From Methylobacterium sp. Leaf104 (GTDB lineage: Bacteria; Pseudomonadota; Alphaproteobacteria; Rhizobiales; Beijerinckiaceae): a stretch of 64,000 bases of DNA. Numbering within the stretch: position 1 is the first letter of the stretch; the number at the start of each line of letters is the position of its first letter. The position numbers and the translations under genes were made by a program. The notes below the pieces were generated by a model that was not told the origin of the DNA, did no database searches, and was given only the letters and a program-made list of their open reading frames with translations. Positions 13,415 to 16,972 of the stretch are shown piece after piece. The stretch covers positions 126,388 through 190,387 of the forward strand of contig NZ_LMMZ01000012.1 in assembly GCF_001422885.1 (NCBI RefSeq), given 5' to 3'.

Positions 13415-13984
13415 TCAGTCCTCGAACAGGTCGGGCCGGCGGGCGCGCAGGGCGAGGACCAGGGTCAGGGTCTTGAGGTCGGTGAATTCGCAGCGATCGG
13501 CCATCCGGGCGAGGTCGGCCAGCGGCAGCTCGACGACCCGGATGTTCTCGTGCTCGCCGTCCGCGCCCCCGCCGCCCTCGACCCGGTCGGCCGCGGCGTA
13601 GGCGGCCAGGAACAGGTGGATCCGCTCCGTCGAGATGCCCCCGCAGGAATAGGTGGCGCCGACGAAGTCGAGGTCGCCCAGGCGCAGGCCCGCCTCCTCC
13701 AGCACCTCCCGCCGGGCATTCTCCTCGGGCGTGCCGTCGTCGATCAGGCCGGCCGGGGCCTCGAGCTGGCTCTGCTCGCCGGCGACGTAGAGCGCCGGCA
13801 CGCGCAGCTCGCGCACCAGGGTCGCGACCCGGCGGGCGGGATCGTAGGGCAGCACCCCGACCGAATTGCCGTGGTCCTCGATCTCGCGCTCGGCCTCGCT
13901 GCCGTCGGCGAGGCGGACGCGAGCCAGGGAGAAGCGGCTCCAGCCCTCGTGGAGGGTCCGCAGGCTGAGGATCTCGGCTTTCAT
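13415..13984 (-). CDS. NUDIX hydrolase (ADP-ribose / nucleotide-sugar pyrophosphatase type)
   Basis: The 189-aa protein has the full Nudix box at residues 79-100: Gly79, Glu87, then REVLEEAGL. Upstream residues (QSQLEAPAG) and a downstream ERI-HLFLA stretch fit the NudF/NudK group that hydrolyses ADP-ribose or GDP-mannose. The exact substrate is not determined. It converges on fabI with a 10-bp gap. Confidence 0.87.
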   Translation of the reverse strand: MKAEILSLRTLHEGWSRFSLARVRLADGSEAEREIEDHGNSVGVLPYDPARRVATLVRELRVPALYVAGEQSQLEAPAGLIDDGTPEENARREVLEEAGLRLGDLDFVGATYSCGGISTERIHLFLAAYAAADRVEGGGGADGEHENIRVVELPLADLARMADRCEFTDLKTLTLVLALRARRPDLFED

Positions 13985-14060: not shown

Positions 14061-14240
14061 TCAGGGGCCGCCCGCCAGGGCGCCCTCGATCACCATGATG
14101 AGCTCGTCGAGGTTGACCCGGCCGTCGAGCGTCAGGAAGCCCGGTTCGCCGGCCTCGACGCTCAGGCCCTGCTCGCTCACCTCGGCCTGGCGCTCGAGTT
14201 CGGCGATGATCGCCCGCGCGATGGTGGTCTGGATATCCAT
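14061..14240 (-). CDS. 59-aa hypothetical protein
   Basis: This small acidic protein starts at ATG 14240 behind a strong GGAGG ribosome site. It begins MDIQTTIARAIIAELERQ, an amphipathic helix, and ends in NLDELIMVIEGALAGG. No known family is recognised. It is the last gene of a minus-strand series with the sigma-1.1-like membrane protein (23 bp upstream) and the BrkB protein, and was only visible as the tail of a longer frame. Confidence 0.7.
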   Translation of the reverse strand: MDIQTTIARAIIAELERQAEVSEQGLSVEAGEPGFLTLDGRVNLDELIMVIEGALAGGP

Positions 14241-14263: not shown

Positions 14264-14812
14264 TCAGTGTCCGAGGGCGATCAGGGCGGCTCCCATCAGC
14301 ACCAGCACGATCAGGCCCGCCACCAGCACCGCCGACCTGACCCGCCGGCTCTCGGCCGGAGACGCCGCTCCGGCCGCGTCCCCGTCGGCGGTGACGGTCG
14401 CCTCCGCCCCTCGGGCGGGAGGCGGGACCGGGCGCGGCGCCACCGAGGCGGCGTCGTGGGAGGGCAGTCCGGGCGCCGGGGCGATGGGCACCGGCGCTAT
14501 CCCATCGGGATGCGCCCGCCCGGGCAGCAGGTCCTCCAGCTCCACCGCGATGCCGGCGGCGTCGAGGTCCAGCACCACCTGGGCGATCGCCTCGGCGCTC
14601 ATGCTCTGGATCGGCAGGGCCGCCTGCAGGTCGGCCGGGGAGAGCTCGCCCTTCTGCCGCCCCAGGGCGATCAGCCGGGCGAGGTCCTGCCGGGCGAGGA
14701 CCGGGGCGGCACTCACCACGGGCGCGGCGCCGGCGCGGCGCCGCCGGGCCGGGAGGGTCGTGCGTGTTGTGATCCGGCCATTCGCCACTCCCGACGTTTC
14801 GCCGTCGGGCAA
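14264..14812 (-). CDS. membrane-anchored protein with a sigma-70 region 1.1-like domain
   Basis: The 182-aa protein has a basic N-terminus (RTTLPARRRRAG), then residues 41-97 that follow the sigma-70 region 1.1 pattern: DLARLIALGRQKGELSPADL, a Leu-Pro in ALPIQS, then helices ending in AAGIAVELED. A Pro/Ala-rich linker (about 98-158) leads to one C-terminal membrane helix (AVLVAGLIVLVLMGAALIAL) with almost nothing after it, so the domain would face the cytoplasm as a tail-anchored protein. Region 1.1 normally sits at the N-terminus of housekeeping sigma factors and mimics DNA in the RNA polymerase channel. Here no other sigma region is present. Function is unknown. Confidence 0.75.
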   Translation of the reverse strand: MPDGETSGVANGRITTRTTLPARRRRAGAAPVVSAAPVLARQDLARLIALGRQKGELSPADLQAALPIQSMSAEAIAQVVLDLDAAGIAVELEDLLPGRAHPDGIAPVPIAPAPGLPSHDAASVAPRPVPPPARGAEATVTADGDAAGAASPAESRRVRSAVLVAGLIVLVLMGAALIALGH

Positions 14813-14857: not shown

Positions 14858-15901
14858 TCACTCCTGGCTCGGCCCCACGCTGTCGGCGGCGAAGGCCTGG
14901 CGGACCCCCAGGGGCTTCGGCCGACCCTCGGTGCTGTCGCAGCCGGTCTGGCGCTCCATCTCCGAATTGATCTCGGCGCCCACGAGGACGATGACGATGG
15001 ACAGCCACATCCAGGTCATGAACCCGATGCCGGCCCCCAGCGACCCGTAGATGCGGTTGTAGCTGTCGAAGCTCGCCACGTACCAGGAGAACACCCCCGA
15101 GGCGGTGACCCAGAGCAGGGCCGCGAGGCTGCTGCCCCAGGTCACCCAGCGCCACTTCGCCCGGTTCCGGCTGGGGCCGTAGCGGTAGATCAGCGACAGG
15201 CTGAGGGTGACGACGCCGAGGAGAGCCGGCCAGCGCACGATCTGCAGGATGGTGTCGGTGGCGGTGATGAAGCCGAGGCGGTCGAGGATCGCCGGCAGCA
15301 GCACCACCGCGCTGGTGGAGACGAGGAAGAACACCACGCTGGTGATCGTGAACAGGAAGGTGGTGGCGTAGAAGCGGATCAGGGTGCGCTTCTCCCGCTC
15401 CTTGTAGATCACGTTGAGGGCGTCGAAGAGCGCGCTCACCCCGGAATTGGCGCTCCAGAGGGCGATCAGCAGGCTGATGCCCGACGTGGTGCTCAAGGAG
15501 CCGGTGCTGCGCTGCGCGATCCGCACCAGTTGGTCCGAGAACAGCTCGAGGGCGCCCGGCGGCAGGATGTCCGCCAGCAGGCTGACGTGCTGGCTGATGA
15601 CGTGGGGGTCCGAGAACAGCCCGTAGATCGACACCACCGCGACGAGGCCGGGGAAGACCGCCAGCAGGGCGAAGAAGGCGACGCCGCCCGCCGTGGTCAG
15701 CACCCGGTCCTGCGGCATGGCCCAGAACACCCGCCAGAGGATATCCCGCCAGCCGGCCTTGGGGATCTCGACGGGGTCGGTCGCGCCCCGGCCGCGGCCG
15801 GGCTCGTGCGCGCGCTGGCGCGCCTCCGCCAATTCCTCCGGATTCAGGGCGCGGGTGCTGACCGAGCGCCAGTCCTGACCCTCTTCCTCTTCTCGCACCA
15901 T
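14858..15901 (-). CDS. YihY/BrkB family inner-membrane protein
   Basis: The 347-aa protein matches the YihY/virulence factor BrkB family: TTAGGVAFFALLAVFP near residues 70-85, several further membrane helices, the SRNRAKWRWVTWGS loop and GSLGAGIGFMTWMWLS near the end. The old ribonuclease BN name for this family is not supported; the role is unknown and may be in envelope transport. It is first in the minus-strand group, 45 bp before the sigma-1.1-like gene. Confidence 0.87.
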   Translation of the reverse strand: MVREEEEGQDWRSVSTRALNPEELAEARQRAHEPGRGRGATDPVEIPKAGWRDILWRVFWAMPQDRVLTTAGGVAFFALLAVFPGLVAVVSIYGLFSDPHVISQHVSLLADILPPGALELFSDQLVRIAQRSTGSLSTTSGISLLIALWSANSGVSALFDALNVIYKEREKRTLIRFYATTFLFTITSVVFFLVSTSAVVLLPAILDRLGFITATDTILQIVRWPALLGVVTLSLSLIYRYGPSRNRAKWRWVTWGSSLAALLWVTASGVFSWYVASFDSYNRIYGSLGAGIGFMTWMWLSIVIVLVGAEINSEMERQTGCDSTEGRPKPLGVRQAFAADSVGPSQE

Positions 15902-15964: not shown

Positions 15965-16972
15965 TCACACTCTGCCTGAAGTCTCGTTATAGGTCGTCAC
16001 CGATGCCGGGACAGGTGTAGGACGATCGAGCCCGGCCATGGGGCAGGTCGCGGCCTGCCGGGCCAGCTCCGTGCGGACGTGCTCGCGGAACAGGCGCACC
16101 CGCGCGGGAAGTTCGCGGCCCGCGAGGGTGACGGCGCGCAGGGTCCCGCCCCGGCTCGCCCAGTCGGGAAGGACGCGCACGAGATCGCCCCGGACCAGGG
16201 ACCGCGCCGCGACGAGGCTCGGGATATGGCCGATGCCGGCCCCGGCCAGGGTCAGGCGCAGCACCGTGGCGAAATCCGTGGCCCGCACGGCCGGGCGCAG
16301 GGTGATCCCGGCCTCCCGTCCCTCGGCGTCCGAGACGAGGATCTGGGTGGCGCCGAGGCGCTCGCGGGCGAGCACCACGTCGTGTGCCGACAGCGCGGCG
16401 ATGTCGACCGGGCCCGGGCGCTGCGCCAGATAGGCCGGGGCCGCGTAGAGGCCGATCGTCAGGTCGGCCAGGATCGGAGCGGTGTAGCCGCTGTCGGGAT
16501 GGTCGCCGCCGCCGAGGCGGAGCGCGAGGTCGACCCGATTGGCGGCGAGATCGAGGCGGCTGTCGGTGATGAGGAGTTCGAGGGTGATCTGCGGGTGCCT
16601 GGCCCGGAAGCTCGCCACGAGGTCCGGCAGCACCTCGACGCCGAAATCGATCGAGGCCGTCACGCGCAGGTGTCCCCGCGGCAGGGTGCGGGCGCCCCGC
16701 GCCGTCTGCAGGGCCTCGTCGAGCAGGGCGAGGCTCTCCAGGGCCCGGGCGTGGAAGGCGAGCCCCTCGGCGGTGGGCGAGACCGCCCGCGGCGTGCGCG
16801 CCAGCAAGGTCACCTTCAGCACCGTCTCCAGGCGGGCGACGCGCCGGCTGACGCTGCCCTTGGTCTCGCGCAGGAAGGCGCCGGCCTGGGTCATGCTGCC
16901 GAGGTCGACCACCGCGCAGAAGGCGCGGACATCGTCGAGGTTTCCGGCGAAGGTTTCCAGATGCGCAACCAT
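15965..16972 (-). CDS. LysR-family transcriptional regulator
   Basis: The 335-aa protein has an N-terminal helix-turn-helix (residues about 13-70; AFCAVVDLGSMTQAG and GSVSRRVARLE) and a C-terminal LysR substrate-binding domain starting near TASIDFGVEVLP. It is divergent from the YceI-b561-YceI operon with a palindrome between them, so it likely controls that operon; the effector is unknown. Confidence 0.9.
   Translation of the reverse strand: MVAHLETFAGNLDDVRAFCAVVDLGSMTQAGAFLRETKGSVSRRVARLETVLKVTLLARTPRAVSPTAEGLAFHARALESLALLDEALQTARGARTLPRGHLRVTASIDFGVEVLPDLVASFRARHPQITLELLITDSRLDLAANRVDLALRLGGGDHPDSGYTAPILADLTIGLYAAPAYLAQRPGPVDIAALSAHDVVLARERLGATQILVSDAEGREAGITLRPAVRATDFATVLRLTLAGAGIGHIPSLVAARSLVRGDLVRVLPDWASRGGTLRAVTLAGRELPARVRLFREHVRTELARQAATCPMAGLDRPTPVPASVTTYNETSGRV

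Follow-up and report, generated by a model that had tools for sequence, protein, structure and literature searches.

Region 1.1 (PF03979) is a domain of the group 1 sigma factors RpoD and SigA, and according to a review domain 1.1 is confined to sigma factors of this group (PMC4598750). A study of the delta subunit (RpoE) describes its N-terminal domain as a sigma 1.1-like domain that binds RNA polymerase at a site other than that of region 1.1 (PMC7749165). A further paper presents Escherichia coli YqjD as a C-tail-anchored ribosome-hibernation factor (PMC10746276). The gene after E. coli yqjD (DUF883) is yqjE, which belongs to PF07332. Our search of the open-access literature turned up no account of a region 1.1 protein that is free-standing or membrane-bound, in line with what the first-pass annotation of this DNA had said. 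Such proteins are presumably labelled 'RNA polymerase sigma factor region1.1 domain-containing protein' at NCBI.

Here we describe gene T of Methylobacterium sp. Leaf104, whose extent, homology, membrane helix and conservation were established computationally. Judged by its sequence, the head of the product is a diverged, free-standing relative of region 1.1 without the rest of a sigma factor. In the window, which is the whole stretch of 64,000 nucleotides that was analysed, T and its surroundings are laid out as follows:

14264..14716, minus strand: gene T, coding for a 150-aa tail-anchored protein; GTG start, alternative GTG start at 14719
14537..14692, minus strand: region 1.1-like head, residues 9-60 of the 150-aa T (PF03979 match, AlphaFold2 models, pN/pS 0.15)
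14360..14536, minus strand: low-complexity Pro/Ala-rich linker, residues 61-119 of T (pLDDT, pN/pS, composition)
14270..14359, minus strand: C-terminal helix of T, residues 120-149 (hydropathy and AlphaFold2 model)
14717..14812, minus strand: upstream part of a longer ORF, probably untranslated (pN/pS, starts in relatives)
14858..15901, minus strand: upstream neighbour, a BrkB/YihY-family inner-membrane protein (PF03631, by Pfam/NCBIfam)
14061..14240, minus strand: 59-aa ORF just downstream of T (similar ORFs in three named relatives)
13415..13984, minus strand: downstream neighbour, a Nudix hydrolase (PF00293, YffH/AdpP type, by Pfam/NCBIfam)

With region 1.1 of RpoD/SigA, T shares the Pfam profile, a predicted three-helix fold, acidity and the landmarks Gly-x-Leu-Thr/Ser, Leu-Pro and Gly-Ile-x-Val; it differs in that no regions 2-4 were found, the acidic extension is missing, invariant residues are replaced and a membrane helix is added. 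Bacillus subtilis delta is like T in having a free-standing sigma 1.1-like N-terminal fold and a flexible second part (PMC7749165), whereas T has a terminal membrane helix where delta has an acidic tail. T was rejected as a delta subunit, no HARE-HTH (PF05066) match being present in the Pfam scan of T or in its own genome. The tail-anchored, ribosome-associated proteins YqjD, ElaB and YgaM of E. coli resemble T in combining a small N-terminal head with one C-terminal membrane helix, and a PF07332 gene stands after yqjD as it does after T in one clade. However, the heads are unrelated (DUF883 in YqjD, region 1.1 in T), and membership of T in the YqjD/DUF883 family was likewise rejected, as neither T nor its genome gave a DUF883 match.

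The gene had earlier been drawn as the complete ORF 14264-14812, which lies on the minus strand and comprises 182 codons; the frame stands, but the ORF is probably over-long, with a start near 14716. In relatives of T the closest start codon, picked by script as the nearest one (the frame of locus L045 offers no other), lies 9-19 residues ahead of the motif. The 31 codons upstream of 14716 have a pN/pS of 1.05, a weak value from three loosely aligned sequences, against 0.15 in the head domain. Because of the starts in relatives and the lack of coding constraint upstream, translation most likely begins at the GTG at 14716 or 14719, giving a protein of about 150 aa. AlphaFold2 models place the helices of its head at residues 9-22, 27-33 and 41-53. 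The linker has a Pro+Ala fraction of 0.46, block pLDDT of 46-57 over residues 61-120 and pN/pS of 0.63 (codons 61-122), and the most hydrophobic 19 residues of the protein are 130-148, with a mean Kyte-Doolittle value of 2.99.

The similarity of the head to sigma-70 region 1.1, proposed in the first-pass annotation, was confirmed by several comparisons. PF03979 (Sigma70_r1_1) matches residues 41-90 of the 182-aa ORF with an E-value of 2.2e-6 and 28 bits, above the curated cut-off of 22.5, and is the sole Pfam family above its cut-off there; T taken from the genome scores 29.3 bits. The pattern LIALGRQKGELS ... LP ... GIAV is present as claimed. A single T sequence searched against the PDB with phmmer reached no sigma factor and gave three chance-level matches. 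A T-head profile (A2) built from 14 heads of three genera matched 22 PDB sequences at E-values up to 1, of which 18 had E<0.001 (best 2.7e-5) and all 18 were RpoD at the position of region 1.1; the other four were three cytidylate kinases and one further RpoD. In a profile-profile comparison, T aligned with 14 RpoD region 1.1 sequences at a probability of 96.7, an E-value of 3.4e-10 and 22% identity. Taken as sequence evidence, these matches indicate that the T head is a true relative of region 1.1. The claim that other sigma regions are absent also holds up, since Pfam and NCBIfam gave no match to regions 2-4 above cut-off in the 182-aa ORF; NCBIfam returned a weak RpoD match (E 0.025, 13.6 bits against a cut-off of 555). 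T was rejected as a group 1 sigma factor, as regions 2-4 are absent and Glu38-Asp39, like other residues that are invariant in the 14 RpoD of the order, occurs in 0 of 33 T sequences.

The predicted structure of T had a mean pLDDT of 68.2, with head blocks at 81-88 (residues 11-60) and the linker at 46-57, and the head modelled alone reached a pLDDT of 80.4 and a pTM of 0.63. For both models the same entries took Foldseek ranks 1-4, namely 5mww, which is the B. subtilis sigma 1.1 domain, and the primary sigma chains 9a58 and 4llg (twice), the aligned part of which was not printed by Foldseek; for the head, TM-scores by query were 0.56-0.64. A likeness of the model to region 1.1 shows in the identity of the four best PDB matches but not in their E-values, which were weak (0.29 to 2.4, none <0.001), and several alignments had an rmsd of 7-8 Å. 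Hence, the predicted fold agrees with sigma 1.1, and the homology is carried by sequence, because the Foldseek E-values are weak and some rmsd values are high.

A joint alignment of 14 RpoD, 33 T and 9 soluble-paralogue heads locates the divergence of T. Gly16, Leu27, Pro28 and Gly48 are common to 14/14 RpoD and 33/33 T, whereas Val5, Lys6, Asn24, Glu38 and Asp39, invariant in the 14 RpoD, are found in none of the 33 T: Lys6 is replaced by Asp in 30, Asn24 by Arg or Gln in 29, Val5 by Leu, Glu38 by Ala or Val, and Asp39 by Leu, Gln or Met. Tyr17 of RpoD is retained in 1 of 33 T, and Glu56 of the acidic extension is present in 13/14 RpoD versus 0/33 T. The soluble paralogue retains Glu38 and Tyr20 (9/9 each), and T does not. 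The head is acidic in every T (net -3 to -7 over 48 columns), with a mean charge of -5.2 versus -2.6 for the RpoD core; over all 63 columns RpoD with its acidic extension averages -9.6 versus -6.4 for T, the comparison being made with 14 RpoD rows. A tree of these heads placed RpoD and the soluble paralogues together on a long branch inside T (0.992); it was set aside as a guide to the direction of descent, because the 63 columns show none, and nothing was drawn from it. Since residues invariant in RpoD are replaced in every T examined, the mode of binding may have changed, and it is unlikely that T binds exactly as RpoD region 1.1 does.

Selection acts differently on the parts of T. In three clades (4, 6 and 5 T sequences, the window clade first), pN/pS was 0.15 (codons 10-60), 0.23 and 0.28 for the head, 0.63, 0.75 and 0.67 for the linker, and 0.80, 0.54 and 0.42 for the membrane part. 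The head is the part kept by purifying selection; the membrane part of the window-clade T is under little constraint at individual residues yet stays hydrophobic. Across 14 heads from three genera, mean column identity is 58%. The single C-terminal hydrophobic helix noted earlier was recovered by hydropathy, and apart from the last ~40 residues none of the 33 family members showed another hydrophobic segment. Basic residues beside the helix are more numerous on its N side in 29/33 and equal on both sides in 4/33, and for this reason we infer that the head is cytoplasmic, which fits an N-in tail anchor. As anatomy, a region 1.1-derived head on a tail anchor is strongly supported, the topology following from this charge pattern.

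T is conserved in Methylobacterium and present in two further genera. A full-length profile (A1) matched with at least 100 bits in 67 of 111 genus genomes, a number counted by eye from the profile matches, and matches of any kind at E<=0.001, including soluble paralogues and RpoD, occurred in 85 of 111; like all distribution counts here these are lower bounds, as some candidates per genome (10 to 36) were scored and the samples need not have included the other genera, g48 and g26. Among the 67, one T (G244) is truncated by a contig edge and covers profile positions 1-92, and in two the match contains a stop, which in G300 is the gene's own stop (the other is G289). Also among them, the T of genome G019 (locus L099) is apparently split, its head and membrane part giving two separate matches, as after a frameshift. 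T relatives in Methylobacterium sp. Leaf125, Leaf117 and Leaf465 share 76, 64 and 73% identity with it. Among 199 family genomes, strong matches were found in four of the same genus, five of g48 and one of g26. Of 397 order genomes, three from the same genus scored about 100 bits with the T-head profile among the matches listed, and the remaining listed matches, at most 41 bits, were mostly RpoD-size frames, with a few short frames, some of which were the soluble paralogue. In 385 genomes of the class and 398 of the phylum, the matches listed at E<=1e-9 were the window T, one same-genus T and otherwise RpoD-sized frames (650-761 aa). A single-sequence scan of genome contigs gave 332 pattern matches with three confirmed, all Methylobacterium; tblastn of T against plasmids gave no match, and none of 600 pattern matches of the head profile in viral contigs was confirmed.

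A third PF03979 match in the genome scores 36 bits (G000:C37:33220-33381). It belongs to a soluble paralogue of 101 aa (L036:2018-2323, minus strand) with a region 1.1-like C-terminal domain and no obvious membrane helix. Eleven such proteins were read, and nine heads, all of the same genus, were aligned with a mean column identity of 83%. The soluble paralogue is very conserved in the genus, and as far as searched no description of it was found.

The surroundings of T were surveyed for the best 30 of the 67 genus loci, which is not a fair sample. A PF07332-like gene lies downstream on the same strand in 17 of these best 30 (PF07332 being confirmed for five sequences from four genomes and the others assigned by tblastn similarity), GCS2 and P450 genes lie beside T in 9, and BrkB, Nudix and the 59-aa ORF in 4, the window included. 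At the five g48 loci, genes for a DUF882 peptidase and an L,D-transpeptidase lie close by, and at the g26 locus none of the tested neighbours is present. Gene order was rejected as a pointer to the partner of T, as it differs from clade to clade, and the Pfam-scanned neighbours include no RNA polymerase or sigma gene. The 59-aa ORF has a GGGAGG stretch shortly ahead of its ATG, shares 92, 75 and 60% identity with its counterparts in three close relatives and gave one sub-threshold BON-like match. Beyond BrkB lies a 335-aa ORF (15965-16972, minus strand), presumably a LysR-type regulator. A conserved protein of 98 aa encoded next to T in g48 (L088:3512-3808, plus strand) has a sub-threshold Alba-like match (E 0.005, 17 bits versus 25). 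In the window clade no PF07332 gene stands beside T, and the two copies of the genome lie elsewhere; one of these YqjE-family genes (L146, G000:C37:93683-94024) is followed, with a 4-base overlap, by a small ORF that we take to resemble the DUF3618 family.

We tentatively favour a reading in which T is a tail-anchored inner-membrane protein that carries its cytoplasmic head on a flexible spacer. The head would be an adaptor for some component of the transcription machinery, with RNA polymerase, bound through a modified region 1.1-like face, as the most likely one, and T would hold or store this partner at the membrane in the way proposed for YqjD and ribosomes; both the partner and the effect we infer. 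A stronger form, in which T would be to transcription what YqjD is to translation, a tail-anchored hibernation factor whose copy of sigma region 1.1 tethers idle RNA polymerase to the inner membrane, seems unlikely to us, and the parallel between yqjD-yqjE and T-PF07332 is only suggestive, because the window clade has no PF07332 gene beside T.

From the sequences, a partner in the transcription machinery is only slightly more likely than a different mode of binding or an unrelated partner. The region 1.1 fold may have been reused, which was the second option of the first-pass annotation, the head being an adaptor for a non-transcription partner such as an envelope or metabolic protein, and this possibility comes close behind the one that we favour. 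The loss of RpoD-invariant residues while four others were kept in 33/33 would suit such reuse, as would the 23% identity of the window head to RpoD of its own genome over 48 columns and neighbours that include BrkB, Nudix, the DUF882 peptidase, L,D-transpeptidase, GCS2 and P450. However, those neighbours vary between clades and so name no partner, T profiles at E<0.001 in the PDB reach RpoD only, and the class and phylum matches listed at E<=1e-9 are T or RpoD-size frames only. Membrane anti-sigma factors exist, and T might be one, its head copying the autoinhibitory contact that region 1.1 makes in free sigma and sequestering RpoD. The review states that region 1.1 keeps free sigma compact with its DNA-binding parts hidden (PMC4598750), but the residues invariant in RpoD are lost in T, and we consider this role improbable. 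A chance resemblance or spurious ORF, which the GC-rich low-complexity linker, the phmmer search without a sigma factor and the 3 of 332 confirmed contig matches might suggest, is very improbable and already contradicted by purifying selection on the head in three clades, by the matches of at least 100 bits in 67/111 genus genomes and by the profile matches to RpoD region 1.1.

A conserved family that carries domain 1.1 at the membrane without a sigma factor would show that this domain has an independent life. Such a family would also make it possible to test directly whether bacterial RNA polymerase, like ribosomes, is parked at the membrane.
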